From: Streptosporangium lutulentum
Lineage (GTDB): Bacteria > Actinomycetota > Actinomycetes > Streptosporangiales > Streptosporangiaceae
DNA: 64,000 bases
Direction: 5' to 3'
Assembly: GCF_030811455.1 (NCBI RefSeq)
Contig: NZ_JAUSQU010000001.1
Location: forward strand, 4,650,001 to 4,714,000
Shown one piece after another: positions 30,211 through 46,437 of the stretch. Made by a program: the position numbers and the translations under genes. The notes beneath the pieces were generated by a model. It did no database searches. It was not told the origin of the DNA and worked only from the letters and a program-made list of their open reading frames with translations. The first letter of the stretch is position 1. Each line of letters opens with the position of its first letter.

Positions 30211-30504
30211 CCGTCCAGTCTACGGAGGGTTGGCACCCGGTCCCATCGTGTCCACCATCCGGACGCTTCATCCTTTCGTTAAACAGCGGAAAATACGGAG
30301 GGTACTCAGGCGAAGCCGTATAGTCAGCTTCGACGTTTCCTCGCCTCGCGAAATGCTCCGACGTCACGGGCACCCCAGACCGGACATTCCGTGCGACGGA
30401 GTCCCCCCTCCGTCCTGAGCGGCCGCTCGACACACGAGCGCGCTTCTTTACGTTGTAGATTCGTTCGACGTCCTACGCCGCCGGTCGTGAGTAAGCTTCG
30501 GATC

Positions 30505-31017
30505 GTGAGTAAGTCGAAGCGCACCGGTGGTCAGGGGACCCCGGCGACGGTGACGTTGACCCAGGCCGACGTGGATTTCACCCTTCACCCCTACGACCAC
30601 GACGCCGACGCGCAGGCCTACGGCGAGGAGGCGGCCGACGCCCTCGGCGTGCCGTACGGGCAGATCTTCAAGACGCTCGTCGCCGAGGTGGAGAGCGGAC
30701 TGGCCGTCGCGGTCGTGCCGGTGGCGGGCAAGCTCGACCTCAAGGCCTTCGCGGCGGCGCTGAAGAGCAAGCGGGCCGCGATGGCCGACGCGGCCAAGGT
30801 GGAACGCGTCACCGGTTACGTGGTGGGCGGCATCAGCCCGCTGGGGCAGCGCAAGCGCCTGCCGACCGTGATCGACGCCTCCGCCCTGGACTTCGAGACG
30901 ATCTACTTCTCCGCCGGGCGGCGCGGGCTGCAGATCGAGACCGCCCCCTCCGAGCTGGTACGGCTCACACAGGCGATCACGGCGCCCATCGGCAAGACGG
31001 GCCAGCCTCCCCGGTGA
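30505..31017 (+). CDS. ybaK: Cys-tRNA(Pro) deacylase (YbaK/EbsC family)
   Basis: A 170-aa editing factor that hydrolyses misacylated Cys-tRNA(Pro). It contains ADVDFTLHPYDHDADAQAYGEEAADALGV (split by family gaps), GQIFKTLVAEV with the catalytic Lys, and YVVGGISPLGQRKRLPTVID, which is diagnostic. GTG 30505 starts MSKSKRTGGQ; a second in-frame GTG at 30487 lies in an 18-bp near-duplicate (GTGAGTAAG twice), so the start is ambiguous. There is no Shine-Dalgarno; a TAGATT -10 lies at 30456-30461. Confidence 0.92.
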   Translation: MSKSKRTGGQGTPATVTLTQADVDFTLHPYDHDADAQAYGEEAADALGVPYGQIFKTLVAEVESGLAVAVVPVAGKLDLKAFAAALKSKRAAMADAAKVERVTGYVVGGISPLGQRKRLPTVIDASALDFETIYFSAGRRGLQIETAPSELVRLTQAITAPIGKTGQPPR

Positions 31018-31196
31018 GAGCCTCCGGAGGATCGGGCGAAGAGCTCCCGGGGACGGGCGGGCCTCCCATCGGGTATCGAGCCCGTTTCCTCAATGGTCCC
31101 GTCGAATCCCGGGCGATCCTGTCGAAGGTTGCCGACGCGCTCGACGACGGCCTTCGGCGAGACTGCGACGCAGGCCGTACCTGATCGGGGGAGCAG

Positions 31197-32588
31197 ATGT
31201 TTTACCTGACCGCTACCGAGATGATCAAGCTGCTGCGCGCGGGGGAGGTCAGCGCGGTCGAGCTGCTCGACGCGCACCTGCGCCGGATCGAGGAGGTCAA
31301 CCCGCAGGTCAACGCGATCGTCACACTGGTGGCCGACCGCGCCCGCGAGGAGGCGAGGGAGGCCGACCGTGACCTGGCGCGGGGCCACTGGCGCGGGCCG
31401 CTGCACGGGCTGCCGGTCGCGCACAAGGACCTGGCGGACACCGCGGGGATCCGCACCACATACGGCTCACCGCTCTTCGCCGACCACGTCCCCGTCAGGG
31501 ACGCGCCGATCGTGCGGCGGATGCGCGAGGCCGGGGCGATCACCGTGGGCAAGACCAACACCCCGGAGTTCGGCACCGGCTCGCACACCGTGAACGAGCT
31601 GTTCGGCGCCACCCGCAACCCGTACGACCTGTCGAAGTCGGCGGGCGGCAGCAGCGGCGGGGCGGCGGCGGCACTGGCGACCGGGATGGTGGCCCTGGCC
31701 GACGGCTCGGACATGGGCGGCTCGCTGCGCAACCCGGCCTCGTTCTGCAACGTGGCGGGGCTGCGGCCGACGCCGGGCCGGGTGCCGTCGTCGTCGGCGA
31801 CCGCGGCGTGGTTCACCCTCGGCGTGCCGGGGCCGATGGCCCGCACCGCCGAGGACCTGGCGCTGCTGATGAGCGCGGTGGCCGGGTTCGACGCCGCCTC
31901 TCCCCTGTCGATCACCGAGAGCGGCGCGGTCTTCGCCGAGCCGCTGGAGCTGGACGTGACCGGGCTGCGCATCGCGTGGAGCCCCGACCTGGGCGGGCTG
32001 CCGGTCGACGCGGAGACGGCGAAGGTCACGGCACAGGCCCCGGCGGTGTTCGAGAGCCTGGGCGCGCGGGTCGAACGGGTGGACCTGGACCTGTCGGACG
32101 CCGAGGACGCGTTCCGGATCTACCGGGCGTGGCACTACGCGTCGTCCTTCGGCGACCTCCCCCAGGACCGTGTGGGGGAGAACGTCCGGTGGAACGTCGA
32201 GCGGGGCCGCGAGGTGACCGGGGCGGACCTGGCGCGCGCGGAGCGGCTGCGCAGCGGCCTCTACCAGCGGATGGACGACTTCTTCCGCACCTACGACTTC
32301 CTGATCGCGCCGGTCAGCCAGGTGCCGCCGTTCCCGGTGGACGCGCCGTACGTCTCGGAGATCAACGGGCAGGCGCTGCCCGACTACCTGTCATGGATGC
32401 GCTCGGCCTACTGGATCAGCGTGCTGCACGCCCCCGCGGCGTCGGTGCCGTGCGGGTTCACCGGTGACGGACTGCCGGTCGGCGTGCAGATCGTCGGACG
32501 GCCCTTCGCCGACATGCGGGTCCTGCGCCTGGCCCACGCCTTCGAGCGGGCCACCGGGCACGGTGCGCGCAGGCCCGCCCGCCCCTGA
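31197..32588 (+). CDS. amidase signature family enzyme
   Basis: A 463-aa amidase. The Ser-Ser-Lys triad is visible: Lys in PVAHKDLADTAG, cis-Ser in GSDMGGSLRNPAS and nucleophile Ser within that block, with the Gly/Ser-rich SAGGSSGGAAAALATG. Family members act on many amides or are GatA-like. GatA usually keeps a longer C-terminal part and a gatB/gatC context, absent here, so a general amidase is preferred. GGGGGAG precedes ATG 31197. It converges on the DUF2567-like gene. Confidence 0.9.
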   Translation: MFYLTATEMIKLLRAGEVSAVELLDAHLRRIEEVNPQVNAIVTLVADRAREEAREADRDLARGHWRGPLHGLPVAHKDLADTAGIRTTYGSPLFADHVPVRDAPIVRRMREAGAITVGKTNTPEFGTGSHTVNELFGATRNPYDLSKSAGGSSGGAAAALATGMVALADGSDMGGSLRNPASFCNVAGLRPTPGRVPSSSATAAWFTLGVPGPMARTAEDLALLMSAVAGFDAASPLSITESGAVFAEPLELDVTGLRIAWSPDLGGLPVDAETAKVTAQAPAVFESLGARVERVDLDLSDAEDAFRIYRAWHYASSFGDLPQDRVGENVRWNVERGREVTGADLARAERLRSGLYQRMDDFFRTYDFLIAPVSQVPPFPVDAPYVSEINGQALPDYLSWMRSAYWISVLHAPAASVPCGFTGDGLPVGVQIVGRPFADMRVLRLAHAFERATGHGARRPARP

Positions 32589-32652
32589 CGTCACGCCCCG
32601 GCGAACGGCGGCCCCGTGAGGAGTCCGACCGGGTCTCCCGCAGGACCTCGCG

Positions 32653-33216
32653 CTACCGGTCGCTGATGTCGTAGGCGGACAGCGGTCCGTAGGGGTCCTC
32701 CCCGCCGAACGGACGGCGCAGCGGCGAGTCCCGGTAGCCCGCGATGCTCTCCAGGGCGAAGAAGAGCCCGACGGCGAGCACCGGCCACGCCAGCAGCACG
32801 CCCTGAGCGGTCAGGCCCAGCGGGCCGGCGATCAGGTGCGTGGACGTCCCGGAGGCGGCGACCGTCACCGCACCGAGGTTGACCGCCCGGCCGACCAGCA
32901 GGGCGACGTACGAGCCGAGCAGGCCGCCCGCCCCCAGCCCCAGCACCACCGCGAGCGGGCGGCCCCTGCGCGACAGGCTGTAGCCGATGGCGCCGCAGGC
33001 CAGGCCGATGGCGCCGGCGATGATGGCGAACCAGCCGTCGGCCGCGATGAGCGCCTGGGTGGTGGGGTCGGCCAGCAGCGGGCCCTGGTCGGTGACGACA
33101 TACGGCGGGCGCGGCGCGGCGAGCGACCACAGGACTCCGGCGATCACCCCGGCCAGGCCAAGTGCCAGCACGGTGACGGCGAAGTCACGTGCGTTCCGCA
33201 ATGTGGTTCCCTTCAC
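32653..33216 (-). CDS. DUF2567-like membrane protein
   Basis: About 187 aa with four predicted helices. The core has WSLAAPRPPYVV, DPTTQALIAADGWFAI and ends with ALESIAGYRDSPLRRPF and a polar tail ending SAYDISDR. GTG 33216 or TTG 33201 is the likely start, with GGGA upstream of the latter; the ORF extension to 33258 is not trusted. Similar proteins occur beside murA in actinobacteria (recollection). Function unknown. Confidence 0.6.
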   Translation of the reverse strand: MKGTTLRNARDFAVTVLALGLAGVIAGVLWSLAAPRPPYVVTDQGPLLADPTTQALIAADGWFAIIAGAIGLACGAIGYSLSRRGRPLAVVLGLGAGGLLGSYVALLVGRAVNLGAVTVAASGTSTHLIAGPLGLTAQGVLLAWPVLAVGLFFALESIAGYRDSPLRRPFGGEDPYGPLSAYDISDR

Positions 33217-33300
33217 CCTCTGTATTGATGTGCCCGATGTTACCCACCGGCTCGCCACGCGTTACCGGAGGTTCAGACCGAGTCCGGCTACTCTGTCCAG

Positions 33301-34617
33301 GTGAACGAAGAGGCATGGCTGATCGAACCCTCCGGACCGCTCCGCGGTGACGTCGAGGTACGCGGTTCCAAAAACGGCGTCTCCAAGCACATGGTCGCCG
33401 CGATGCTCGGCATCGGTGAGAGCACGATCCACAACGCCCCCGACGTGGGTGAGGTCGGGATCACCGCGCAGATGCTGCGCGCGCTCGGCATCGACGTGGA
33501 GATCACCGCTGGAGAGATCATCATCTCTCAGGGGCCACAGATCAACCCCCACGTTCCGGCGGCGTTCACCGGCCTCAACCGGATCCCCATCCTGATGCTG
33601 GGCCCGCTGCTGCACCTGGCGGGCGAGGCCTTCGTGCCGCTGGTCGGCGGCGACCCGATCGGGCGCCGGCCCGTCGACTTCCACGTCGAGGCGCTGCGCG
33701 CGATGGGCGCCGAGGTCGAGGTGAGCGACACCGGCATCTACGCCAAGGCCAAGCGGCTGCGCGGGACCCGCATCGAGCTTCCCTACCCCAGCGTGGGCGC
33801 GACCGAGACGATCCTGATGTCGGCGGTGCTGGCCCAGGGCAAGACCGTGCTCAAGGGCGCGGCCATGGAGCCCGAGGTGGTGGAGCTCGCCCTGTTCCTG
33901 CAGCGCATGGGCGCGCGCATCGAGCTCAGCCCGGACCGGCGCATCGTGATCGAGGGGGTGGACCGCCTGCACGGCGCGTCCACCTGGCTGAACGGTGACC
34001 GGATCGAGGCGTTCTCCTACCTGGCGGCCGGTCTGATCACCGGCGGGCAGGTGCGGGTGCACGGCTGCCCGCAGGACCGGCTGGTCACCGCGATCACCAC
34101 GCTGGCCCGGATGGGCGCCGAGATGGACATCACCGACGACTACCTGTCGGCGTCGGCGCCGAACGGGTTACGGGCGGCGGCGGTGCAGACCGACACCCAC
34201 CCGGGGTTCATGACCGACTGGCAGACGCCCCTGATGGTGCTGTTCACCCAGGCCCAGGGCATGTCGGTGCTGCACGAGACGGTGTTCGAGAACCGCCTCG
34301 TCTACGTGCCCGCCCTGCAGAAGATGGGCTGCGAGATCGAGGTCTTCGACGTGTGCCTCGGCGGCCCCGCCTGCCGCTACCACGACACCAACGCCAAGCA
34401 CTCGGCGGTCGTCCGCGGCGTGTCGAAGCTGAGCGGCGCCGACGTGACCCTGCCGGACATCCGGGCCGGGTTCTCCGCCGTGCTCGCGGCCGCGGCCGCG
34501 GAGGGCACCTCCACGCTGCGCGGGGTGCATCACATCGAACGGGGCTACCACCGGCCGTTCGAGCAGTTCGCCTCGCTGGGCCTGAAGATCAGTAGAGAAA
34601 AGGTGCAGGACGGGTAA
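33301..34617 (+). CDS. murA: UDP-N-acetylglucosamine 1-carboxyvinyltransferase homologue with Asp at the PEP-site Cys
   Basis: MurA adds enolpyruvate to UDP-GlcNAc in the first committed step of peptidoglycan synthesis. The 438-aa protein has the EPSP-synthase-like fold with RGSKNG near residue 21 and the flexible loop VGGDPIGRRPVDFH, where residue 118 is Asp instead of the usual Cys that fosfomycin alkylates. GTG 33301 follows TACTCT at 33289-33294 with no Shine-Dalgarno, so the message may be leaderless. KHMVAAML replaces the common LPLLAA. It may be the essential MurA or a paralogue. Confidence 0.9.
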   Translation: MNEEAWLIEPSGPLRGDVEVRGSKNGVSKHMVAAMLGIGESTIHNAPDVGEVGITAQMLRALGIDVEITAGEIIISQGPQINPHVPAAFTGLNRIPILMLGPLLHLAGEAFVPLVGGDPIGRRPVDFHVEALRAMGAEVEVSDTGIYAKAKRLRGTRIELPYPSVGATETILMSAVLAQGKTVLKGAAMEPEVVELALFLQRMGARIELSPDRRIVIEGVDRLHGASTWLNGDRIEAFSYLAAGLITGGQVRVHGCPQDRLVTAITTLARMGAEMDITDDYLSASAPNGLRAAAVQTDTHPGFMTDWQTPLMVLFTQAQGMSVLHETVFENRLVYVPALQKMGCEIEVFDVCLGGPACRYHDTNAKHSAVVRGVSKLSGADVTLPDIRAGFSAVLAAAAAEGTSTLRGVHHIERGYHRPFEQFASLGLKISREKVQDG

Positions 34618-34669
34618 GGATTCGCAATAGGGCGTTTGTAGGTGATCACCCGGTTGCACCTTACTATGC

Positions 34670-36886
34670 GTGACATTGCGACGCGAGGAGAGACGTAAGC
34701 CCTCCGCGTGCCTGCGCGGGCTGGTGACCTGCGGCGTACTCGGCGGGCTGCTGGCGGCGATGGCGGCCCTGCCCCTGGTCTGCACCGTGGGTCTCACCAC
34801 CAACAAGGTCACGACCGCCCTCACCGACCTGCCGCCGAGCCCGCGAGAGGACCCGCTCTCCCAGCGCACCGTTCTCCTGGACCGGCGCGGCGACCAGTTC
34901 GCCCAGTTCTACAAGCAGAACCGGACCCTCGTGAGGCTCGACCAGGTCGCCCCTGTCATGCGCGACGCGATCGTGGCGATCGAGGACTCCCGGTTCTACG
35001 AGCACGCGGGCCTGGACATCAAGGGGACGCTGCGCGCGCTGGTGACCAACACCCAGGCGGGCGAGGTACGGCAGGGCGGCTCCTCCCTCACCCAGCAGCT
35101 CGTGAAGAACATCCTGGTCGAGAACTCCGAGAGCGACACCGAGCGCGCCCAGGCCCGCGCGCCGAGCATCAAGCGCAAGATCACCGAGCTGCGGTACGCG
35201 CTGGCGATGGAGAAGAAGTACAGCAAGGCCGAGATCCTGGAGCGGTATCTCAACATCGCCTACTTCGGCGCGGGGGCCTTCGGGGTGGAGGCCGCGGCCC
35301 AGCGGTTCTTCTCGATCCCGGCGTCGAAACTGTCCCTGTCGCAGGCCGCGACGCTGGCCGGCGCGGTGCGCGCGCCGTACTCGACCGACCCGTCGCTGGG
35401 CAGGCAGCGCCGCGAGCGCCTGCGGGAGCGCAGGGACCTCGTCCTGGACCGGATGGCCCAGCTCTCGCTCGCCCCCCGGCAGAAGGCCGAAGCCGCCAAG
35501 CGGCGCGCCCTGAACATCCATCTCAAACCGGAGCCGGGTGGCTGCGCCGAGAGCTCCTACCCCTACTTCTGCCTCTACGTCCATCGGGAGCTGCTGACCA
35601 ACCCCGCGTTCGGCCCGAGCCGCCCGGAGCGGGAGCGGCGGCTGGCCCGGGGCGGCCTCGTGCTGCACACCACCCTGGACCCGCAGGACCAGCGGGCCGC
35701 GCAGCGTGCCATCTCCTCGCGGGTCGGCCGGCGCGACACCCAGGTCGCGGCCGAGGCCATGGTCGAGCCGGGCACCGGACGGATCAGGGCGCTGGCCGCG
35801 AGCAAGAAGTACGGCCGCGACTCCGGCAAGGACAACAACGGCCCCAGCACCACGTTCAACCTTCCCGCGGACGTGGCGCACGGCGGCGGCCAGGGTTTCC
35901 AGGCGGGGTCCACGTTCAAGATCTTCACCCTGGCGACCGCGCTGAGCAAGGGCTGGCGGTTCGACGACGGTTTCATGACGCCGGGCATGTTCGTCCCTCG
36001 CGAGGGCTTCACCGACTGTACCGGCCGGAAGGTCAACGCCCCCAAGGCCAGGATCTTCAACGCCAGCGGCGAGGGCTCGGGCGGCCCGCAGAGCATCTAC
36101 ACCGGCACCTGGAAGTCGGTGAACATCTTCTACATGATGCTGGAGCAGCGGGTGGGGCTGTGCTCGGTGGTCAAGACCGCCAAGGCGCTGGGGGTCGTCC
36201 GCGCCGACGGCACCCCGCTGCGGGAGGTCCCGACCTTCACCCTCGGGGTGAACGAGATGGATCCGCTGACGGTGGCGGCCTCGGTCGCCACGTTCGGCGC
36301 GCGGGGCCGCTACTGCCGCCCGATGGCCATCCTCGACATCGTCGAACGGGACGGCACTCACGTGGCGGTCCGGCCGAGCTGCAAGAGGGTGATCGACCGC
36401 GAGGTGGCCGACGCGGTGAACCACGTGCTGTCCGGGGTGTTCACCAAGGGCACCATGACGGGCCAGGGCATCGGCCGCGACGCGGCGGGCAAGACCGGCA
36501 CCAACAACGGCTACACCTCGGCCTGGTTCGCCGGATACACCCCCGACCTGGCCGCCGCGGTCAGCGTGGGCGACATCCGCGGCGCCTACAAGCATCCGCT
36601 GACCGGCGTGCAGATCGGCGACGAGTACTACGGCGCGGTCCAGGGCGCCTCCCTGCCGGGACCGATCTGGGTGTCGTCGATGACCAGGGCCCTGCGCGGC
36701 GTCCCTGAGACCTCCTTCCGCCACCCGGACATGGGCCGTTTCGGCGGCGGGTTCACTCCCGGCATGAAGGAGGCGCTGGAGGCCGAACGCCGCGAGGAGG
36801 AGGGGCGCGGCGACGAGGACCGCGCCGGTGAGCGCCGTGCGCACCGCGTCGCCGGCCGGCGCCACCACATGGGGCAGCGCGGCTGA
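34670..36886 (+). CDS. class A penicillin-binding protein (transglycosylase-transpeptidase)
   Basis: A 738-aa bifunctional cell-wall polymerase. It has an N-terminal membrane helix (about 15-42), a GT51 domain with the catalytic Glu in IEDSRFYEH near residue 104 and RQGGSSLTQQLVKN, and a transpeptidase with the Ser-x-x-Lys in AGSTFKIF near 417, the SVN motif in TWKSVNIFYM and KTGT near 608. No PASTA repeats. A basic tail ends the protein. GTG 34670 is 3 nt after a TACTAT -10 (34662-34667), so it is probably leaderless. It is 52 nt after the MurA homologue. Confidence 0.94.
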   Translation: MTLRREERRKPSACLRGLVTCGVLGGLLAAMAALPLVCTVGLTTNKVTTALTDLPPSPREDPLSQRTVLLDRRGDQFAQFYKQNRTLVRLDQVAPVMRDAIVAIEDSRFYEHAGLDIKGTLRALVTNTQAGEVRQGGSSLTQQLVKNILVENSESDTERAQARAPSIKRKITELRYALAMEKKYSKAEILERYLNIAYFGAGAFGVEAAAQRFFSIPASKLSLSQAATLAGAVRAPYSTDPSLGRQRRERLRERRDLVLDRMAQLSLAPRQKAEAAKRRALNIHLKPEPGGCAESSYPYFCLYVHRELLTNPAFGPSRPERERRLARGGLVLHTTLDPQDQRAAQRAISSRVGRRDTQVAAEAMVEPGTGRIRALAASKKYGRDSGKDNNGPSTTFNLPADVAHGGGQGFQAGSTFKIFTLATALSKGWRFDDGFMTPGMFVPREGFTDCTGRKVNAPKARIFNASGEGSGGPQSIYTGTWKSVNIFYMMLEQRVGLCSVVKTAKALGVVRADGTPLREVPTFTLGVNEMDPLTVAASVATFGARGRYCRPMAILDIVERDGTHVAVRPSCKRVIDREVADAVNHVLSGVFTKGTMTGQGIGRDAAGKTGTNNGYTSAWFAGYTPDLAAAVSVGDIRGAYKHPLTGVQIGDEYYGAVQGASLPGPIWVSSMTRALRGVPETSFRHPDMGRFGGGFTPGMKEALEAERREEEGRGDEDRAGERRAHRVAGRRHHMGQRG

Positions 36887-36903
36887 ACACGGATCGAACC
36901 CGA

Positions 36904-36927
36904 CCCCGTGGAGCTGACGCTCCGGGG
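36904..36927. terminator. hairpin between PBP and DAHP synthase-like gene
   Basis: CCCC (36904-36907) and GGAGC (36910-36914) pair with GCTCC (36919-36923) and GGGG (36924-36927), with a 2-nt bulge. It lies in the 61-bp gap between convergent genes. Confidence 0.45.
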
Positions 36928-36947
36928 ATGCCGGAACGGTCCCGGGC

Positions 36948-37892
36948 TCACTCCGCGCGGGCGCGGCCCCGGTCGGCCGCCATCCGTTCCTCCGCGAGGT
37001 GCAGGCCCGCCTCGATGACGGCGTTCATGATGGAGGCGAGACGGTCCTCCCCGAGGCCGGGGGCGCGCCGGGCCATGTCGGCGACCAGGCGGCGCTCCCG
37101 GTCCATGTCGCGACCGGCGAAGCCGCCGACGGGCTTGAGCCGCTGGATGACGCCCGCGAGCTCGGCCCGGCGTTCCAGGAGGAGGGCGAGGGCCGCGTCG
37201 ACGCGGTCGATGGCCCCGCGCGCGGCCGGCAGGGAGCCGGGGTCCTCCCTGCGGGTGACGGCTCCGACGATCTTCACGGCCTCGTGGACGGCGAGGGCCT
37301 CCCGCTCGGTGGAGCCGGGGGGCAGGAGCAGCCCGTCGGCGCCGGCGGCGATCGCGGCGGCGGCCAGGCCGGGGTCGCCGCCGAGGTCCGCCAGGACGGG
37401 GCGGCCGGACCTCTCCCGGGCGGCGCGCATCAGGGCCAGGTCGAGGGTGACCCCGCCCAGGTGTGTACGGCTGCCGCTCTCGCAGAGCACGACCCTGTCG
37501 TTGCCCTCGGCCACGCAGTAGTCGGCGACGGCCAGCCACTCCTCCAGGGTCGCGGAGGGGGCACGCTGGACGAGCACCGGAAGGCCGAGCCGGGCGACCG
37601 CGCGGACCAGCTGGAAGTCCTGCATCCAGGCCGCGCCCACCACCGCGCCGACGGCGTTCGCGGCGATCTCCGGCAGGTCGGCCGCCGAGAACGGCTCCAC
37701 CAGGACGGGTCCCCGCCAGCCGGCGCGGACCGCCGCCACCGACTCGGACGCGAGGACGCGCCCGTGGTTCTCACGCAGGTTGATCCAGCGGGCGTCCGCC
37801 CCGGCGCCGCCGATCACCACGACCGGTCCGGCCCCCACCGTGAGCGTCCCGAACCTCACGACCCCGCGCTCCAGGTCTGCGGTCAACGACAT
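36948..37892 (-). CDS. DAHP synthase-like domain fused to chorismate mutase
   Basis: A 314-aa two-domain protein. Residues 1 to about 225 resemble the type I-beta DAHP synthase barrel (VAGPCAVES-type N-terminus replaced by VVVIGGAGA; WMQDFQLVRAVARLGLPVLVQRAPSATLEEW split over the usual QNF and KRG sites). The C-terminus is an AroQ chorismate mutase: RGAIDRVDAALALLLERR, the Lys in QRLKPVGG and DMDRERRLV. ATG 37892 follows GGGAG. It is preceded by the structured RNA at 37943-38040. Several catalytic positions of the first domain are changed (see findings). Confidence 0.8.
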   Translation of the reverse strand: MSLTADLERGVVRFGTLTVGAGPVVVIGGAGADARWINLRENHGRVLASESVAAVRAGWRGPVLVEPFSAADLPEIAANAVGAVVGAAWMQDFQLVRAVARLGLPVLVQRAPSATLEEWLAVADYCVAEGNDRVVLCESGSRTHLGGVTLDLALMRAARERSGRPVLADLGGDPGLAAAAIAAGADGLLLPPGSTEREALAVHEAVKIVGAVTRREDPGSLPAARGAIDRVDAALALLLERRAELAGVIQRLKPVGGFAGRDMDRERRLVADMARRAPGLGEDRLASIMNAVIEAGLHLAEERMAADRGRARAE

Positions 37893-37942
37893 CTCGGCTC
37901 CCATGGTCGGCCGGCGCGCGTCCCGCGAGCCGGCGGGTTCGT

Positions 37943-38040
37943 AAGAAACAGAAAAGGCAGAGACGATGCGTCTCTGCCTCGTGCCGGCTCCGGATGGGTC
38001 ACTGAATCATGCTGTCACGACCGGCCCTCCGGAGCCGGCT
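37943..38040 (-). ncRNA. candidate structured RNA with intrinsic terminator (leader or small RNA)
   Basis: Reading leftward: a TAAGGT -10 box (38052-38047) is followed, near the expected start, by a 12-bp perfect stem (38028-38039 with 37983-37994, 33-nt loop). Then comes an 11-bp perfect hairpin (37969-37979 with 37955-37965, loop ATG) and a T-rich tail, TTTTCTGTTTCTT (37955-37943). A U-tract of this quality is rare here. It lies 50 nt before the DAHP synthase-like start, so it could be an attenuator, riboswitch or independent sRNA. It is not a T-box, 6C RNA, SRP RNA or known SAM element that I can recognise. Confidence 0.6.
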
Positions 38041-38206
38041 CGATAAACCTTAAACAGCAAGTCATGCGAGCAACGATAGGCCATGCCCCCACCACCTGCC
38101 ACTTACCGGACACCACGTCTCGGTATCTGGACCCCATAACCTCGTTTAAGTCGATCACTTTACTTGGCTATGAGAGTATTCGGGGGTTTAGAAGGAGGTA
38201 AGGCGG

Positions 38207-40321
38207 TTGATGGCCGAAGCACAGCCTGAGGGGCGCCGGGTCGCCTCCCGCTACCACCTGCTCGAAGCCATCGGCCGAGGTGGCATGGGCATCGTCTGGC
38301 GGGCCCACGACGAGTTCCTCGACCGCGAAGTCGCGATCAAGGAAGTCCGCTACGCCGACATGCTCGGCGAGGACAACCAGGAGGACTTCAATCGGCGCAC
38401 CAAGCGTGAGGCGCGCGCCGCCGGGCGGCTGACCCACCCGAACGTGGTGGTGGTCCACGACGTCGTCGAGGAGGACGGGCGGCCCTGGATCGTCATGCAG
38501 CTGGTGGAGTCCCGCTCCCTCGGCAAGGTCATGCGGCAGGACGGGCCGTTGCCGCCCAAGCGGGTGGCGGAGATCGGGCTCCAGTTGCTGGACGCGCTGC
38601 GTGCCGCGCACACCCAGGGAGTGCTGCACCGTGACGTCAAGCCGGAGAACGTCCTGCTGGCCGACGACGGCCGGGTGGTCCTGACCGACTTCGGCATCGC
38701 GACGCTCGAAGCCGAGACGGCGTTGACCATGACCGGGATCGCCGGAACCCCCGCGTTCATCCCGCCTGAGCGCATCAAGGGCGCGAGCGCGCAGCGCGAG
38801 TCCGACCTGTGGTCCCTCGGGGCGACGCTGTACGCGGCCGTGGAGGGCAAGCCCCCTCACGACCGCGGCGGGGCGCTGCCGACCATGCACGCCATCCTGA
38901 ACGACGAGCCCGAGCCCCCGGCCCGCGCCGGAAGGCTGGCCCCGGTTCTCGAAGGGCTGCTCCGCAAGGACCCGGCCCTGCGCATGAACTACGCCGAGGC
39001 CGAGGGGCTGCTGCGCGCGGTGGCCGAGGGCGAGGAGAAACCCGAGAAGCCCGCCAGGAAACGGCCCGCCAAGACGGCTGTCATGCCCGCCGTGGTGGCC
39101 GCCTCGGCCACGGCCGACACCGATCCGGGAGCCCGGTTCCAGGCCGACGACTTCCCCGCCACGGGGGCGAAGCTGGGCGTCGCCGTACCGGCCCCCCCGA
39201 AGCCCCCGGCTCCGCGGGAAGAACCGCGGGAGCCCGCCGCGAAGGCGCCGGTCGAGGAGGCGCCGGCCGAGGACGCGGGGCGGAAGCCCGAGGCGGAGCG
39301 GAACCCCACCCCGCCCGCACGGTCGGAGACCGTCTCACCCGAACGGCCGAAGACCGCCCCGCCGGTACAGCAGGGTCCCGTCCCCGCACCCCGGCCCGAG
39401 CCCGCCCCGTCACGGCCGGCCCCCGCTCCCGGAGGCCGGCCGAACCCCTTCCCTCCCGTCCGGCAGCCCGTCCCGGCCCCACGGCCCGAGCCCGCCCCCC
39501 GCGCGTCCGAGGGGTTCGTCCCCGAGGTTCACCAGGACGGCGCGGGGACCCTGGACCCCTCCTCCCAGATGATGACGATGACGTCGCAGGGCGGGTCGCG
39601 GACGCCGGTGAAGCGGGGCCTGCTGGTGATCCTGCCCGCCCTGCTGATCGTCGGGATGGTCGCGGGATGGCTCGGGCTGCGCAGCGGCCAGTCCACCGAG
39701 GAGCAGGCCACCGGACCGTCGCAGGCGCGCCCGGGCGGGTCGGGCGAGCCGAGTGGGTCGGGCTCGGGCGGGTCGACCGGCCCTGCCGAGACGACCCCGG
39801 AGAGCACTCCCGAGCAGAAGCCCTCGCCGGCTCCCTCACCGAGTCCCACCCCGACGAAGAAGAAGGAGGAGTCCGCGCTTCCCGCCGGCTGGCACATGCA
39901 CAAGGACAGCAACGGCTTCTCCGTCGGCCTGCCCAAGGGGTGGTACGTGGCGAGCCGGAGCGGGAGGCAGGTGCGGTTCCGCGGGCCGAACGACTCGGTG
40001 AGCTACATGATGATCGAGTACGTCGACAAGGGGGGTGCCGACCCCAAGAAGGACTGGGAGAAGCAGGAGCCCTACAGCAGGGGCAACTTCCCGGGCTACA
40101 AGCGGATCCGGATCGAGAAGGTCGACTACATGGTGAAGGCCGCCGACTGGGAGTTCACCTGGAACATCAGCGCGGGCAAGGCCCGGGTGATCAACCGGGG
40201 GTTCATCGCCAACAAGGGCGGCCGGGGATACGCCATCTACTGGCACACCCTCGCCTCCGACTGGAAGAAGAACCTGCCCCTCTTCGAGGGGTTCGCCAAG
40301 ACCTTCTCGTCGAAGAAGTGA
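38207..40321 (+). CDS. transmembrane Ser/Thr protein kinase 1
   Basis: A 704-aa receptor kinase. The cytoplasmic kinase spans about residues 14-275 (GRGGMG, VAIKEV Lys, HRDVKPENV near 142, DFG, GTPAFIPPE). A Pro/Ala/Glu-rich linker follows to about 465, then one membrane helix (about 471-491), a Ser/Gly/Pro linker and an extracellular domain from about 560 to the end with GWHMHKDSNGFSVGLPKGW and YAIYW. No PASTA. AAGGAGGT (38192-38199) fits TTG 38207 (8 nt) better than ATG 38210 (11 nt). It is the first of two tandem kinases. Confidence 0.95.
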   Translation: MMAEAQPEGRRVASRYHLLEAIGRGGMGIVWRAHDEFLDREVAIKEVRYADMLGEDNQEDFNRRTKREARAAGRLTHPNVVVVHDVVEEDGRPWIVMQLVESRSLGKVMRQDGPLPPKRVAEIGLQLLDALRAAHTQGVLHRDVKPENVLLADDGRVVLTDFGIATLEAETALTMTGIAGTPAFIPPERIKGASAQRESDLWSLGATLYAAVEGKPPHDRGGALPTMHAILNDEPEPPARAGRLAPVLEGLLRKDPALRMNYAEAEGLLRAVAEGEEKPEKPARKRPAKTAVMPAVVAASATADTDPGARFQADDFPATGAKLGVAVPAPPKPPAPREEPREPAAKAPVEEAPAEDAGRKPEAERNPTPPARSETVSPERPKTAPPVQQGPVPAPRPEPAPSRPAPAPGGRPNPFPPVRQPVPAPRPEPAPRASEGFVPEVHQDGAGTLDPSSQMMTMTSQGGSRTPVKRGLLVILPALLIVGMVAGWLGLRSGQSTEEQATGPSQARPGGSGEPSGSGSGGSTGPAETTPESTPEQKPSPAPSPSPTPTKKKEESALPAGWHMHKDSNGFSVGLPKGWYVASRSGRQVRFRGPNDSVSYMMIEYVDKGGADPKKDWEKQEPYSRGNFPGYKRIRIEKVDYMVKAADWEFTWNISAGKARVINRGFIANKGGRGYAIYWHTLASDWKKNLPLFEGFAKTFSSKK

Positions 40322-40368
40322 GCGGCGTCTCGACCGGCGACGATTCGTGAGCTTGGGGGCAAGAGGAA

Positions 40369-42495
40369 TTGACCGAACGGAAGGTCACGGGACGCTACCG
40401 GCTGCTCGAACCCATCGGTGAAGGCGGGATGGGCATCGTCTGGCGGGCCCACGACGAACTCCTCGACCGGGTCGTGGCGATCAAGGAGGTTCGCTACCGC
40501 GGGGTCGACGAGAAGGCACGGGCCGACCTGAACCGGCGGACGATCAGGGAGGCCAGGACCGCCGGGCGGCTCGACCATCCGTCCGTGGTCATCGTGCACG
40601 ACGTGGTCGAGGAGGAGGGCCGGCCCTGGATCGTCATGCAGCTGGTCCGGTCGCGGTCGCTGGGCGCGGTCGTCCGTGAGGACGGGCCGCTGGCACCCGG
40701 CCAGGTGGCCTCGGTCGGCCTGCACGTGCTGAGCGCGCTGCGGGCGGCGCACGCCTCGGGAGTGCTGCACCGCGACGTCAAGCCGGAGAACGTCCTGCTG
40801 GCCGACGACGGCCGGGTGGTCCTGACCGACTTCGGCATCGCCGCGATGACGAACGAGACCGGGATCACCCGGACGGGCGGGATGGTCGGCACGCCGGCGT
40901 TCCTGCCCCCCGAGCGGCTCCACGGCCTGGCGGCCACCCCCCTGTCGGACCTGTGGTCCCTCGGGGCGACCCTGTACGCCGCCCTGGAGGGCCGACCGCC
41001 CTTCGAGCGTGCCACGGCCGCCGCGACCATGCAGGCCGTCCTTCAGGGCGAGCCCAGCCCCATGACGCACACCGGGCCCCTCGCCGTCGTGATCCTCGGT
41101 CTGATGTCCACGGACCCCGGCTCCCGGATGGACCCCGACCAGGCCGAGGCCCTGCTCAACCGCGTGTCCTCGGAGCAGTCCCCGGCGCAGCCCTCGGGAC
41201 ACCCGCCGGGGCGCTCCCCGGGGCACGGGGGTCAGGCCGTGGAGCACGAGAACCAGGCCTCCCTGCGCAGGGCCCTCCCCGACGTGGCCGGGCCGCCGGA
41301 GGACCACGGCTTCGCACCCCGCCCCACCCTGGGGTTCCCCCAGGGCGCCGCGGCACCCCGGAGCGAGCCGCCGTACGGGTCCCGGCCGCCGTACGCCGGG
41401 GAACCGGCTCCTCCGGCCGGGGCGGCCCCGGACACCTGGCACCCGCACCCGGGGCAGCCGTTCTCCGGCGCCCCCGGGCGAGGTGTGCCCGCCGAACCGG
41501 GACGGTTCGCTCACCCCGGGCAGCAGTCCCCGCGGAGTGATCCGGCACCCGGCCGGCCCTCCCCTCAGACCGGGCCGGCAGGACCGGGCCGGGCCGACCG
41601 TCCGGGTGGTCCGGCCGGACCCGGGCTGCCCGCCTACGGGGGCAATCCGACACATTCCTCGCACCAGGGCGGAACCCAGCATTCCGGGCAGTCGCCCTAC
41701 GGCGGCGAACCTCCGTATCAGGGCGCGCCCGCGCACTCCGGGCAACCGCCCTACGGCACCGAGCCGTCGTATCCGGGTTCCCGCCCGCGTCAGGGGCCGC
41801 CCGGCGGCGCCGGGGGCGGGCACGCCCTCCGGCGGCCGGGGGTGGAGCGGATCGCGCTCCTGGTCGGGGTGCCCGCCCTCGTGGTGACGGTCGGAGTCGG
41901 CGGCTGGCTGCTGACCGCCGACCCCGACACCCCGTCGGACCGGGGAAGCAGGCCGGTGCCCACGACCGTGTTCCCCGACGTCACGGCCGCCGAGCCCTCC
42001 CCCCGTCCCTCGAAGACCCGCCGGACGACTCCCGCCCCGTCCTCCCCCACCCAGGCCATTCCGCCGGGCTGGCGGCTGCACAAGGACACGATGGGCTTCA
42101 CCGTCGCGATGCCCAAGGGCTGGAGCGCCAAGCGGTTCTCCAACCGCGACCGGGTGGAGTTCCGCGACCCGGACTCGGACGCCTTCCTGTGGATCGAGTC
42201 GACCGAGGATTCCGAGACGGACCCGGTCAGGCACTGGCAGAAAGTCGAGAAGGCCGGGACGGCCCGGAATCTCTGGCCGGGGTACCAGCGGATCCGCATC
42301 ACCTTGCTGACCTATCGCGGCGTGGCCGCCGCGGACTGGGAGTTCCTCTACGTCAAGAAGGGCGTCCGGACGCGCGTCCTCGACCGGGGGTTCCGCACGC
42401 CCTCGGGCCGGCCGTACGCGATCTACTGGGAGAGCCCCGCCTCCGAGTGGGATCCGGCGTTCTTCGACGCCTTCACGGCGACCTTCAAGCCTTGA
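40369..42495 (+). CDS. transmembrane Ser/Thr protein kinase 2
   Basis: A 708-aa paralogue of the preceding kinase, 47 nt downstream and likely co-transcribed. The kinase (about 9-265) has GEGGMG, VAIKEV, HRDVKPEN near 131, DFG and GTPAFLPPE. A 220-residue Gly/Pro/Tyr-rich linker with repeats of SGQPPYGTEP type follows, then one helix (about 497-520) and an extracellular domain from about 565 (GWRLHKDTMGFTVAMPKGW and YAIYW), clearly homologous to that of kinase 1. The start is TTG 40369 after AGAGGAA. Confidence 0.94.
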   Translation: MTERKVTGRYRLLEPIGEGGMGIVWRAHDELLDRVVAIKEVRYRGVDEKARADLNRRTIREARTAGRLDHPSVVIVHDVVEEEGRPWIVMQLVRSRSLGAVVREDGPLAPGQVASVGLHVLSALRAAHASGVLHRDVKPENVLLADDGRVVLTDFGIAAMTNETGITRTGGMVGTPAFLPPERLHGLAATPLSDLWSLGATLYAALEGRPPFERATAAATMQAVLQGEPSPMTHTGPLAVVILGLMSTDPGSRMDPDQAEALLNRVSSEQSPAQPSGHPPGRSPGHGGQAVEHENQASLRRALPDVAGPPEDHGFAPRPTLGFPQGAAAPRSEPPYGSRPPYAGEPAPPAGAAPDTWHPHPGQPFSGAPGRGVPAEPGRFAHPGQQSPRSDPAPGRPSPQTGPAGPGRADRPGGPAGPGLPAYGGNPTHSSHQGGTQHSGQSPYGGEPPYQGAPAHSGQPPYGTEPSYPGSRPRQGPPGGAGGGHALRRPGVERIALLVGVPALVVTVGVGGWLLTADPDTPSDRGSRPVPTTVFPDVTAAEPSPRPSKTRRTTPAPSSPTQAIPPGWRLHKDTMGFTVAMPKGWSAKRFSNRDRVEFRDPDSDAFLWIESTEDSETDPVRHWQKVEKAGTARNLWPGYQRIRITLLTYRGVAAADWEFLYVKKGVRTRVLDRGFRTPSGRPYAIYWESPASEWDPAFFDAFTATFKP

Positions 42496-42535
42496 CGGCG
42501 TGGTCCGGACGCGCCTTCGAGCCGCTCCGGAGCCG

Positions 42536-43387
42536 CTACTGCCAGGCTCGCGCGTATCGCCGGTAGGTCCCGTCGTGCGTACGCAGGTGCACCCACTCGT
42601 CGACGTAGTTCGTGAACTCCTGATCACCGCGCGGCAGCAGGTACGCCTTCTCGGCGAAGGTGAACGGCCGGTCGGGGTGGATCGCGCACAGCGCCGGATG
42701 CAGCCGGGCCCGGTAGAGCGCCTCGCCGGCATCGGTGATCATCACGTCCGCCCGGCCGGCCACGATCTCGTCGAAGATCGTGTTGTTGTCCCGGTGCACG
42801 ATGATCGTCGCGTGGTGCAGGTGCGCGCGGGCGAACGTCTCGTTCGTCCCGCCCGGGTTGACGATCACTCGTACGCCGGCCCGGTCGATCCGCGCCAGCG
42901 TGCCGTACCGGTCCTTGTCCGCGCACCGCGCGATCGGCGTCTTGCCGTCGGTCCGGTACGGCTCGCTGAACACCGCCTCGCGGGCGCGGTCCAAGGTCAC
43001 CGAGATTCCGCCCATGCCGATGTCACAGCGGCCCGCGGTCAGATCCGTGAGCAGGTTCCCCCAGGTCGTGGGGGTGAACTCGGCCTTGGCGCCGAGGCTC
43101 CCCGCCAGGTCCCGCGCCATGTCGATGTCGATGCCGCTGTACGAGCCGGTCCTCGGGTCCCGGTAGGTGAACGGCCGGTAGTCACCGGTGGTGCACACGC
43201 GCAGCCTCCCGCTGTGCCGCACCTCGTCCAGCAGCGTGCCGGAGGGCGCGGGACTCGGCCGCGCCCGCTCGGCGGCGAGCCCGGCGCCCGCGGTCGTGCC
43301 GGCCAGGACGGCCAGGACGGTGACCACGACGGTGACCACGACCAGGGCCAGGGCCGACGGGACGCCGGCACGTCGTCTCACGCTCAC
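42536..43387 (-). CDS. exported cyclohexadienyl dehydratase-like / family 3 solute-binding protein
   Basis: A 283-aa protein with a basic N-terminus and one hydrophobic segment (signal peptide or anchor, residues about 8-32). The mature part aligns by eye with Pseudomonas PheC: GRLRVCTTGDYRPFTY, CDIGMGGISVTLDRAR, NPGGTNETFARAHL, LHPALCAIHPDRPFTFAEKAYLLPRGD. PheC is a solute-binding-protein fold that dehydrates prephenate and arogenate. GTG 43387 follows GGAG and begins MSVRRRAG. It is convergent to kinase 2 and divergent to kinase 3. Enzyme or amino-acid binding protein is undecided. Confidence 0.8.
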   Translation of the reverse strand: MSVRRRAGVPSALALVVVTVVVTVLAVLAGTTAGAGLAAERARPSPAPSGTLLDEVRHSGRLRVCTTGDYRPFTYRDPRTGSYSGIDIDMARDLAGSLGAKAEFTPTTWGNLLTDLTAGRCDIGMGGISVTLDRAREAVFSEPYRTDGKTPIARCADKDRYGTLARIDRAGVRVIVNPGGTNETFARAHLHHATIIVHRDNNTIFDEIVAGRADVMITDAGEALYRARLHPALCAIHPDRPFTFAEKAYLLPRGDQEFTNYVDEWVHLRTHDGTYRRYARAWQ

Positions 43388-43782
43388 AGGTCGCTCCTCC
43401 GCTCGCCTCTCCACCCGGCGCATGCCGTTGAGGGACAAAAGACCCGGACCGGGCCGGCCGTCCCCCGGATGACGTCCGGACCGTTCTCGGCGCGGCACGG
43501 GGAGGCTCTCACGGTGGTTTATCCGGTCAGAGCGAGTTCATGCAGGTGAGCGCCCTTCCGCGTCCCGCGGCCGGTCGCGTTCCGACCGGTCGATCACGAC
43601 ACGATGGCAATCAAAGATCTACGGATGGAACGCTTCCGCCGCCGACTCCTCGTAGAATGGCCTTTTCGCGCTGGGCCAAGGCCTTCGAGCCATGACAAAG
43701 GGGCGGGCCGTACCCCCACCTCTCCCACCGCCAGATACCGTGTATACGGATTGTTGACCTCATATGGGGGTACTCGAGGCAC
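43388..43782. other. 395-bp divergent intergenic region
   Basis: No gene is supported. A perfect 7-bp inverted repeat (43571-43577 with 43583-43589, CCGGTCG/CGACCGG) lies near the middle. Close to the kinase 3 start are the near-palindrome CCGTGTATACGG (43738-43749) and TTGACC (43754-43759), without a clear -10 at 17 bp. The region must hold promoters for both neighbours. Confidence 0.4.
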
Positions 43783-45429
43783 ATGTCCGACTCTCAGGAG
43801 ATCATCGGGGCCCGTTACCGATTGCTGGAACGCATCGGCAGCGGAGGCATGGGAACGGTCTGGCGGGCACGCGACGAGGTCCTCGGCCGGGAGGTCGCGG
43901 TCAAAGAGATCATTCCCTCTCCCGACCTGACCGGTCCCGAGCGCGAGATCTTCACCATGCGAACGCTCAGAGAGGCCCATACCGCCGGGCGGATCGGGCA
44001 TCCGGGCGTCGCCACGGTCTACGACGTGATCGAGGAGAACGGGCGTCCGTGGATCGTGATGCAGCTGGTGAACTCCCGGACCCTCGGGGCCGTGGTCAGG
44101 CAGGACGGGCCGCTGCCGCCGGTGCGTGTGGCCCAGATCGGGATCGAGGTGCTCGCGGCGCTGTTCGCGGCTCAGCACGTGGGCGTCCTGCACCGCGACG
44201 TGAAGCCGGACAACGTGCTGCTCGCGGAGGACGGGCGGGCCGTGCTGACGGACTTCGGCATCGCCGTCCTCGAGGGTGACTCCTCGCTGACCAAGACCGG
44301 CTCGCTCATCGGCACCCCGGCGTTCATCGCGCCCGAACGGGCGGCCGGAGGGCCCGCGGAGTTCGCCTCCGACCTGTGGTCGCTCGGCGTGACGCTCTAC
44401 GTGGCGGTCGAGGGGCGTTCCCCCTTCGAGCGGGCCCATCCGCTGGCGACGCTCAGCGCGGTCATGCACCAGCATCCGGAGCCGCTGAAACTCGCCGGTC
44501 CGCTGGGTCCGGTGATCCTCGGCCTGCTCCGCAAGGATCCGGCGGAGCGCATGTCCGCGCAGGAGGCGCAGACCCACCTCTGGTCGATCGTGAACGGGAC
44601 CGCCTCGCAGTCCACCATGCCGATCGACCTCCCGGCCTCGGACTCCACCCTCGTCGCGGCCCCGGCACCGGCCGCCGTGCCGTCTTTCCCGCCGCCGGCC
44701 CCGCGGGACGCCCCCGCCCGGCCTCCGGTGGACGAGACGCCGTCGGAGGCGCCGCCCATCGCCACGGACCCCGGGCCCGTCCTGCCCCCCGGCGGGGGAC
44801 GGCGGCGCCCGGTGCTGCTCGCCGTCATGGCGATGGCGGTCGCCATCGCCATGACCTCGGCCGGGATGGCATGGGTCGCCTCGAACTCTTCCACGACGAG
44901 CCCGGTGGAACCGCCGGTCTCGTCAAGCGTTCCCGCGCAGGAGCCCACCCCGAAGAGCAAGCCCGAGCAGGCGAGGCTTCCCGAACGGAACGACCCCGCA
45001 CCGACCAGGACGTGGGAGGCTCCCCGCGAACCCGCCTATCGTCCCGCCCCGGGGACGTCCGAGGAGTTCAAGCCCTCCCCGTCGGGCAGACCCACGGACA
45101 AGCCCTCGGCGAAACCCTCCACGAAGCCCTCGGCGAAGCCCTCTCCGGACGAGCCCGAGGACGACCAGGGAGACGACTCGGGTGACGACTCGGGTGACGA
45201 CTCGGGGAACAACCCGGGCCATAACTCGGGCGACGGTTCGGGGAACGACTCCGGAGACGGCTCCGGGGAGGGGCCGCAGGGCGGCGACCCGGGCCAGAAC
45301 GCCGACCAGGGCTCGGGCCAGGACTCGAATTCGGGCACGGGCACGGGGGAGGACTCGGCGCCGAACCAGGGCGGCAACGCCGCCTCCCAGCTCGCCCCCG
45401 CGGGAGGGACGGACCCCCTCGGCTCCTGA
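43783..45429 (+). CDS. transmembrane Ser/Thr protein kinase 3 with acidic repeat tail
   Basis: A 548-aa kinase. The catalytic domain (about 11-270) has GSGGMG, VAVKEI, HRDVKPDN near 140, DFG and GTPAFIAPE. A proline linker leads to one membrane helix (about 343-366). The extracellular part is disordered: first Pro/Glu/Lys, with PSAKPSTKPSAKPSP, then a run of Asp/Ser/Gly repeats (DDSGDDSGDDSGNN) ending NAASQLAPAGG. It lacks the shared ectodomain of kinases 1 and 2. ATG 43783 is used. It is followed by a terminator. Confidence 0.94.
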   Translation: MSDSQEIIGARYRLLERIGSGGMGTVWRARDEVLGREVAVKEIIPSPDLTGPEREIFTMRTLREAHTAGRIGHPGVATVYDVIEENGRPWIVMQLVNSRTLGAVVRQDGPLPPVRVAQIGIEVLAALFAAQHVGVLHRDVKPDNVLLAEDGRAVLTDFGIAVLEGDSSLTKTGSLIGTPAFIAPERAAGGPAEFASDLWSLGVTLYVAVEGRSPFERAHPLATLSAVMHQHPEPLKLAGPLGPVILGLLRKDPAERMSAQEAQTHLWSIVNGTASQSTMPIDLPASDSTLVAAPAPAAVPSFPPPAPRDAPARPPVDETPSEAPPIATDPGPVLPPGGGRRRPVLLAVMAMAVAIAMTSAGMAWVASNSSTTSPVEPPVSSSVPAQEPTPKSKPEQARLPERNDPAPTRTWEAPREPAYRPAPGTSEEFKPSPSGRPTDKPSAKPSTKPSAKPSPDEPEDDQGDDSGDDSGDDSGNNPGHNSGDGSGNDSGDGSGEGPQGGDPGQNADQGSGQDSNSGTGTGEDSAPNQGGNAASQLAPAGGTDPLGS

Positions 45430-45451
45430 GGCGAGGGCCGGGACGACACGA

Positions 45452-45475
45452 CCGGCGATCCGTGGAGATCGCCGG
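45452..45475. terminator. bidirectional hairpin between kinase 3 and pseudouridine synthase
   Basis: CCGGCGATC (45452-45460) pairs perfectly with GATCGCCGG (45467-45475) around CGTGGA. It lies between two convergent genes. Confidence 0.6.
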
Positions 45476-45507
45476 ACCGGCGCCCGGACGGCTCGGGACG
45501 GGCCGCG

Positions 45508-46437
45508 CTAGGAGTCTCCGCCCACGGCCTTCAGCGCGTGGGCCAGGTCTTCCGGGTAATCGGTGGTGAAGGCGACCCACTCCCCCGTCGCCGGGTGCTC
45601 GAAGGCCAGGGAGACCGCGTGCAGCCACTGCCGGGTGATGCCCAGGCGCGCGGCCAGCGTGGGGTCGGCGCCGTACATCATGTCGCCGACGCACGGGTGG
45701 CGCAGCGCCGACATGTGAACCCGGATCTGATGGGTCCGGCCCGTCTCCAGCTTGATGTCCAGCAGGGAGGCCGCGCGGAACGCCTCGATCGTGTCGTAGT
45801 GCGTGACCGACTCCTTGCCCCCGGCCACGACGGCCCAGCGGCCGTCCCCGGCGGGGTGGCGGTCGATCGGGGCGTCCACGGTGCCGCGCGACGGGTCGGG
45901 GTGACCCTGGACCAGCGCGTGATAGCGCTTTTCGACCGTGCGTTCCTTGAAGGCCCGCTTCAGGTGGGAGTAGGCGTGCTCGCTCTTGGCCACGACCATG
46001 GCGCCGGTGGTGTTGGCGTCCAGGCGGTGCACGATGCCCTGGCGCTCGGCCGCGCCGCTGGTCGCGACCCGGTGCCCGGTGCCGAGCAGGCCGCCGATCA
46101 CGGTCGGCCCGGTCCAGCCGGTGGTCGGATGGGCGGCCACGCCTATGGGCTTGTTGACGACCACGATGTCGTCGTCCTCGTAGACGATCGTCATACCGGG
46201 GATCGGCTCGGCCACCGGCATCGGCGCGACGGGCGGCGGCGGCAGCGTCACCTCCAGCCACGCACCCCCCTGGACCCGGTCGGACTTGGCCGCGAGCGAG
46301 CCGTCCACGAGCACGTCACCGGCGGTGATCAACTCAGCCGCGCGGGTGCGGGAGAAGCCGAACAACCGCGACAGAGCGGCGTCGAGGCGCTCACCTTCCA
46401 GTCCCTCGGGAACCGGGAGACTCCGCTGTTCAGCCAT
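45508..46437 (-). CDS. rluD: RluA/RluD family pseudouridine synthase
   Basis: A 309-aa RNA modification enzyme. It has an N-terminal S4 RNA-binding domain ([26 protein letters not shown], split here for length: residues about 17-42), then the catalytic Asp motif [12 protein letters not shown], and [13 protein letters not shown]. RluD-type enzymes modify 23S rRNA helix 69; the exact target here is not proven. ATG 46437 overlaps the lspA stop by 8 nt and follows AGAAGAGAAG. lspA-rluD order is common in bacteria. Confidence 0.93.

Follow-up and report, generated by a model that had tools for sequence, protein, structure and literature searches.

A putative leader-peptide attenuator for aromatic amino-acid supply ahead of a chorismate-mutase gene in Streptosporangium

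What does the short, strongly structured RNA ahead of a chorismate-mutase gene in Streptosporangium lutulentum do? It lies on the minus strand of the window (the whole stretch of 64,000 nucleotides that was analysed), and a sequence-only reading had proposed for it either an attenuator responding to aromatic metabolites or an independent small RNA. Our comparison with relatives suggests that the element is probably a cis-acting, ribosome-mediated attenuator of transcription that serves aromatic amino-acid supply. The attenuator thus stands in its general sense, given the covariation, the position before chorismate-mutase and DAHP-synthase genes and the aromatic codons described below. A metabolite as the likely signal does not: the signal is likely to be charged tRNA, read by a ribosome on a short upstream open reading frame (uORF), rather than a metabolite bound to the RNA.

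Along the minus strand, a -10 element and the uORF are followed by arms A, B and C, 2 nt, terminator hairpin D with its U-rich tail, a third hairpin, GGGAGCCGAG and the gene (Table 1). The gene starts at 37892, after GGGAG, or alternatively at 37904.

Table 1. Features of the leader and its gene, in window coordinates.
Feature	Position	Strand	Basis
-10 element TATCGT (TAnnnT), candidate leader promoter	38073..38078	-	conserved spacing to the uORF start
uORF, ATG...TGA, predicted leaderless, MTCCLRFIEPAPEGRS*	38015..38065	-	108 of 111 distinct leaders parsed
Last Phe codon TTT, putative control codon, 5 nt ahead of helix A	38045..38047	-	codon counts in relatives
Segment A, 5' arm of stem 1 (P1), inside the coding part of the uORF	38028..38039	-	pairing counts
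Segment B, possible alternative partner of A instead of C (hairpin A:B)	38020..38027	-	pairs in 99.0% of cells, double-sided changes absent
Segment C, 3' arm of stem 1 (P1)	37983..37994	-	double-sided changes at two pairs
Terminator hairpin D, 2 nt past P1	37954..37980	-	four pairs with double-sided changes; terminator scan
U-rich tail of the terminator, TTTTCTGTTTCTT	37943..37955	-	sequence
Third hairpin, between terminator and gene	37910..37934	-	sequence
Candidate regulated gene: degenerate DAHP-synthase-like domain and chorismate mutase	36948..37892	-	Pfam

The architecture had been read correctly in several respects. Stem 1 has 12 perfect pairs (38028-38039 with 37983-37994) around a 33-nt loop, and the terminator is real, with its hairpin at 37980-37954 and, down to 37943, a U-rich tail. 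The RNA is also compact and structured as described: the 98-nt segment has a folding energy of -59.3 kcal/mol, compared with -33.1 ± 3.6 in 200 shuffles (z -7.2), and its opposite strand gives z -7.2 as well, as perfect hairpins would. Across the 16 kb that were scanned (30000-46000) there are 10 terminator-like sites, with 4.1 expected from shuffles, and D has the most pairs (12) among them. We rejected D as an ordinary gene-end terminator: the kinase gene on its other side is divergent, as had been noted, and when read on the plus strand the hairpin is not followed by a U-run. That gene belongs to a kinase-like pair of similar build on the plus strand (38207-40321 and 40369-42495; Pfam was run on the first alone).

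The downstream gene encodes two domains (Pfam DAHP_synth_1, 8.5e-14; CM_2, 1.3e-9). Its N-terminal domain matches the DAHP synthase of PDB 3nvt, residues 64-189, with KRG replaced by QRA, DVTHSTG by DLGGDPG and the domain order reversed; judged by that enzyme, the DAHP-synthase-like domain has presumably lost catalytic residues. Calling the gene degenerate is apt for this domain; the chorismate-mutase domain lies above the Pfam cut-off. A second chorismate-mutase match in the genome (C1:9223276-9223476) has no match to the leader model nearby.

Is the leader conserved with the gene? A match to the gene turned up in 16 of 16 genomes within the genus, and among named records the best is that of Streptosporangium subroseum (90% at the amino-acid level), which bears out Streptosporangiales, the order in which the sequence-only reading had proposed to look for homologous leaders. 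When 200 family genomes were searched with the 121-nt leader, 130 had matches at E ≤ 0.1, many of these matches short and likely due to chance. From that search we kept 30 loci and 40 further places down to E 8.8e-4 (the partial matches G192, G151 and G098 were omitted), and pooled them for a profile with the loci of the gene matches and 80 from a search of named records. The profile found the leader in 166 of 181 loci; the 15 misses are 14 weaker protein matches in the genus (L018-L031, about 40% identity) and L168. Removal of duplicates left 111 distinct leaders, 108 of which could be parsed, and 88 of these were aligned with MAFFT. By sequence comparison the element is conserved across the Streptosporangiaceae and their kin. 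No strong second, unlinked copy was found in the window's genome (best unlinked model score 18.1 bits, against 112.2), and a phage search gave no match.

Three leaders depart from the common layout. In one Streptosporangium genome (L012) the 300 bases before the uORF (within 1000-1310) include a sequence that resembles what we take to be the 3' end of a group II intron; it ends 2 nt before the ATG, at the place of the -10, with uORF and terminator retained. In L013 and L107 (S. amethystogenes) the uORF-side TAG is separated by 168 nt from the inner arm of stem 1 (GCGACC), a distance that is close to nil in the other leaders; both keep arm C and the terminator.

The covariation check that had been proposed was run on the homologous leaders, and stem 1, the inner stem and the terminator all show compensatory changes. 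In the 88-leader alignment P1 (A:C), the inner stem (P2) and D together have 98.5% of cells paired, compared with 32-44% in slid controls. Double-sided changes fall in 9 pairs (25 cells), against 2.0 pairs and 2.6 cells in shuffles, and 0 of 500 shuffles scored as high. The A:B hairpin is paired in 99.0% of cells with zero double-sided changes, so it is possible rather than proven. The RNAalifold consensus chose A:B and D, not A:C; by mean fold energy A-to-B is the weaker (-13.6 versus -33.3 kcal/mol for A-to-C).

The geometry is also kept. The linker between P1 and D is 0-4 nt in 108 of 108 leaders, and in 103 of them the loop of the inner stem has the stop codon within it or at its margin. 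The distance from the last Phe codon to A is fixed by the parsing pattern and so is not independent for these leaders, but none of the 88 rows of the MAFFT alignment has a gap there. An intrinsic terminator stands between leader ORF and gene in the window and in the 108 kin, with a weaker U-tract in other families.

The 5' arm of the window's third hairpin is similar to segment A; C and the ribosome-binding site are both potential partners for it. Pairing with C is plausible in the window; as a general feature we rejected it, the third-hairpin sequence being different (by eye) in relatives such as L218. Relatives have a hairpin at this position with other sequence (by eye), and the region folds barely better than shuffles in 108 leaders (mean z -0.44).

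Where would transcription start? The sequence-only reading took TAAGGT (38047-38052) as the promoter, with a transcript starting near 38040. We rejected this promoter. The hexamer sits within the uORF codons TTA AGG TTT and is unique to the window among the 88 aligned leaders, and with it the start near 38040 loses its support. Relatives share instead a TAnnnT that is 26 nt farther upstream. It lies at -14 to -11 from the uORF start in 183 of 183 parsed leaders (2.4% in a shuffled control), a count biased by a choice of start codon that favoured starts with such a -10. The accessible text of PMC8079986 describes leaderless transcripts (17%) and a TAnnnT -10 in Streptomyces lividans.

The uORF itself was parsed in the same 108 of 111 distinct leaders, and in relatives it commonly has the form M-x-x-R-Y-x-x-F-[IT]-x-P-A-P. 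Of the three that do not fit, L012 and L013 carry a uORF by eye and L098 has Val in place of the last Phe. The sequences point to a short leader ORF with codons for the amino acids of the pathway. Residues before the last Phe in chorismate-mutase leaders are 13.5% Tyr and 8.2% Phe (n = 658), as against about 0.1% each after it (n = 1,421). Tyr is written as TAT (49) and TAC (40), which indicates that the amino acid is kept and not one DNA word. Among chorismate-mutase leaders 123 of 126 write the last Phe as TTT, and among DAHP-synthase leaders 54 of 55 do so (177 of 181 together), under a parsing pattern that requires TTT or TTC. Phe codons upstream of it are TTC in 56 of 56 cases, and TTT is very rare, at 0 of 76 Phe codons in five window genes. 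A TTT here may be a slow codon at the gate, or may reflect a need for unpaired U-rich RNA.

The window's own uORF has no Tyr codon and one Phe codon left, which counts against an attenuator for aromatic supply. It also holds a TTA codon (38051-38053, minus strand), the sole one in 183 parsed uORFs (1 of the 88 aligned leaders), and five neighbouring genes have one TTA in 2,907 codons; the uORF TTA could add control through the rare Leu tRNA.

The leader extends well beyond the family of the window. A covariance model built from the 88 aligned leaders matched 64 of 394 genomes of the class at E ≤ 0.01; at E ≤ 0.001 it matched 20 of 22 in family f19, 29 of 151 in f4 and 5 of 296 in a sample of the phylum. 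We examined 102 loci, excluding L188-L204 (mostly leaders of the window's family). Without duplicates 77 remained, and 75 were parsed. The gene that follows, classed by script from sequence motifs, is a DAHP synthase in 55 (class I, as we take them to be from their motifs), a chorismate mutase in 18 and unclassed in two. The downstream gene therefore belongs to the pathway of the leader's amino acids in the window, with its chorismate mutase, and in 73 of 75 leaders elsewhere. Chorismate-mutase genes without a DAHP-synthase-like part are also preceded by the leader (L244, L246), so the leader goes with the mutase. We found it in five families (f1, f4, f19, f36 and f37); a sixth, f46, has no clear terminator. 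In f19, 10 of 22 genomes have it in two separate places, the second mostly ahead of a chorismate-mutase gene. The P1-D linker is -2 to 5 nt in 71 of these 75 leaders; in L224, L273, L292 and L300 linkers of 7-16 nt were parsed, with no clear hairpin in the usual place.

Some outlying loci are worth recording. L224, L292 and L300 carry YYWF, YFWF and YYWF before a DAHP synthase, with no clear U-tailed hairpin parsed in the usual place, and perhaps use another mode of control. L256 (f17), unparsed, was dropped because it has no uORF. The other unparsed locus, L225 (f47; E 0.0015), has no Phe codon in the parsed place and stands outside all counts. By eye it may be a related leader, with one Tyr codon, ahead of a tyrosyl-tRNA-synthetase-like gene, and a terminator-like hairpin adjoins a C-like arm (oriented position about 300-420); it is a single lead.

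Chorismate mutase serves Phe and Tyr, and DAHP synthase serves Phe, Tyr and Trp. The codon content of the uORF tends to follow this division, as far as sequence comparison can tell. Trp occurs upstream of the last Phe in 41 of 55 DAHP-synthase leaders (39 of 52 distinct peptides) and in 0 of 126 chorismate-mutase leaders (0 of 110); Fisher's p of 1.3e-26 overstates the case because the sequences share descent and are not independent. Tyr is present in 55 of 55 and 88 of 126, respectively. The Trp comparison excludes L234 and L241, the leaders of unclassed genes, neither of which has Trp before the last Phe. The search model, built from chorismate-mutase leaders only, favours the Phe codon, not Trp. 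Outside f19 all 36 DAHP-synthase leaders have Trp. Within f19, which has both kinds of gene, the contrast is weak (5 of 19 DAHP-synthase against 0 of 9 chorismate-mutase leaders, p 0.14), so several clades carry it, not a large number of independent events.

How might such a leader work? Promoter use, translation of the uORF, stalling and the direction of regulation are all proposed here from the layout, and the way in which stem 1 relieves termination is the most conjectural part. Transcription from the promoter at 38078-38073 would give a leaderless mRNA starting at or beside the ATG, and a ribosome would translate the short uORF behind RNA polymerase. When charged tRNA for Phe is plentiful (relatives would add that for Tyr and, ahead of many DAHP-synthase genes, that for Trp), the ribosome would reach the stop codon in the loop of stem 1 and cover A and B; stem 1 would be blocked and the terminator would end transcription, leaving, if made, an RNA of about 120 nt. 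When the last Phe codon is in the ribosomal A site, the mRNA entry lies at about the first base of segment A. A ribosome at any of the control codons would therefore leave A free, and passage beyond the last would open it. During a stall at an aromatic codon, stem 1 (A:C) would thus form and abut the terminator, and polymerase would read through into the gene.

In our folding model P1 has a probability of 0.99 in the stalled state and 0.84 in untranslated RNA, and cannot form with the ribosome at the stop. The mean probability of the terminator at equilibrium is 0.98 stalled, 0.98 at the stop and 0.97 untranslated. Stem 1 is hence the structure that differs between the modelled states, and competition for base pairs alone does not switch the terminator. 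Nor did we find, upstream of D, an antiterminator that shares bases with it. The best upstream partners of the terminator arms are no better than those of shuffled arms (mean z +0.93 and +0.20; +0.53 and -0.03 in a second test), and we rejected such an antiterminator against mononucleotide shuffles of the arm.

What could then relieve termination? The helix of stem 1, 0-4 nt away, may compete with the lower pairs of the terminator for space at the RNA exit channel. If the element is an attenuator, we give this steric competition a little less than an even chance. That stem 1 should relieve termination at all follows from feedback logic, which calls for readthrough on starvation. We found no published demonstration, in the open literature as far as it was accessible, of an abutting helix that does so.

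The strongest rival keeps the same attenuator and lets stem 1 act otherwise: it would aid termination within a cluster of hairpins, or the outcome would depend on where the ribosome stands with respect to RNA polymerase or on weak pairing of A/B with the terminator. We consider this possible, though unlikely. It fits a terminator that forms in every modelled state, and the accessible part of PMC8355165 argues that clustered hairpins promote termination, which counts against relief by abutment. However, a stem 1 that aided termination would make starvation reduce synthesis of the enzyme. As for A/B, the best upstream partner of the terminator's 3' arm does lie at the end of A or the start of B in 71 of 108 leaders, but it is no better than for shuffled arms (the mean z of +0.20 and -0.03 above).

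Could the RNA instead be read by a small molecule or protein, as a riboswitch or an antiterminator-protein site, with the uORF incidental? The strong structure and its conservation would suit this. Yet the aromatic codons vary with the gene, Tyr codons are exchanged for synonyms, and the end of the uORF shifts frame (GGPV.. or EGRS*) with the stop nonetheless in or at the loop. Moreover, as the sequence-only reading had said of known families, Rfam 15, with its leader and riboswitch families, gives no match at gathering score in the window and none up to E 0.5 in six relatives; the five matches up to E 10 in 37880-38210 are weak and fall far short of the gathering score. We regard this reading as highly improbable.

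Equally doubtful is the independent RNA of the sequence-only reading, a small RNA acting in trans after early termination. The element is compact and stable and likely has its own promoter and terminator, but its single strong copy in the genome and the constancy of the gene behind it, in 73 of the 75 parsed leaders from the other searches, make such an RNA less likely than control in cis. Arrest by a nascent peptide that senses a ligand is the least probable of all, for although [RC]Y..F[IT].PAP recurs, the peptide varies by clade (AYWRF, RRYPYF, MRTYLAF) and its frame shifts after the last Phe while the RNA pairing persists.

Ribosome-mediated attenuation would thus place leader-peptide sensing of aromatic supply in five families of the class, as is suggested by f1, f4, f19, f36 and f37. 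Two points would be controlled, the entry step of the pathway and the Phe/Tyr branch point, and the codon content tends to fit the branch. We tentatively raise a broader idea, in which we have less than moderate trust: a class of attenuators, widespread in actinobacteria, that does without a competing antiterminator. In it, ribosome position would decide whether a helix forms flush with the terminator, and this helix, not competition for base pairs, would block termination; a rare TTT, placed 5 nt ahead of the helix, would be the common gate, and Tyr and Trp codons would be swapped to match the gene. If true, the abutting-helix step would be a different way of running attenuation. The leader could also find use in strains that produce aromatic amino acids or natural products.

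Well-known attenuators of E. coli, those of trp, pheA and pheST, have a leader peptide with codons for the product and a U-tailed terminator before the gene. The element of the window is like them in its pathway codons and in its U-tailed terminator ahead of the gene. It is unlike them in its putative leaderless start, in that no base-sharing antiterminator was found and in that a stalled ribosome would leave the first arm free rather than mask it. It does not take the classical trp/phe form, and we file it as a variant. The E. coli cases are among those named in the accessible text of PMC11802643.

Our search of the open literature on leader peptides, uORFs and attenuation of chorismate-mutase and DAHP-synthase genes in actinobacteria showed nothing on this element among the papers listed. 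A comparative survey of 2005 (PMC1262725) reported, in the part accessible, no conserved RNA structure before Phe/Tyr operons in the Actinobacteria it considered, in contrast to the leaders described here. The same text relates that substituting candidate codons in the ilvB leader of Streptomyces coelicolor left regulation unchanged, and this counts against the reading given here. Closer likenesses exist. The ilvB-II motif of Corynebacterium (PMC10272879, accessible part) has a uORF, usually of 15-17 codons' worth of amino acids, that overlaps the first hairpin and is followed by a terminator hairpin, and it occurs once per genome ahead of the same gene; its codons, however, are branched-chain and its drawn antiterminator shares bases. 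The trpL1, leuL and ilvL leaders of S. lividans (PMC8079986) are likewise actinobacterial leader peptides with a leaderless start, and some have U-rich terminators, but they serve other amino acids, and Phe and Tyr are absent among the eight leaders named in the accessible text. By description the nearest known case is aroR-aroF of Corynebacterium glutamicum. There, in the accessible accounts (PMC11802643 and PMC4046766, attributed to Neshat et al. 2014), a short aromatic leader peptide, aroR, with Phe-Tyr-Phe before a DAHP-synthase gene, lets aroF be induced on limitation of Phe and not by Tyr. The gene in the window, by contrast, is a chorismate mutase, and related leaders that precede a DAHP synthase often carry Trp codons too.
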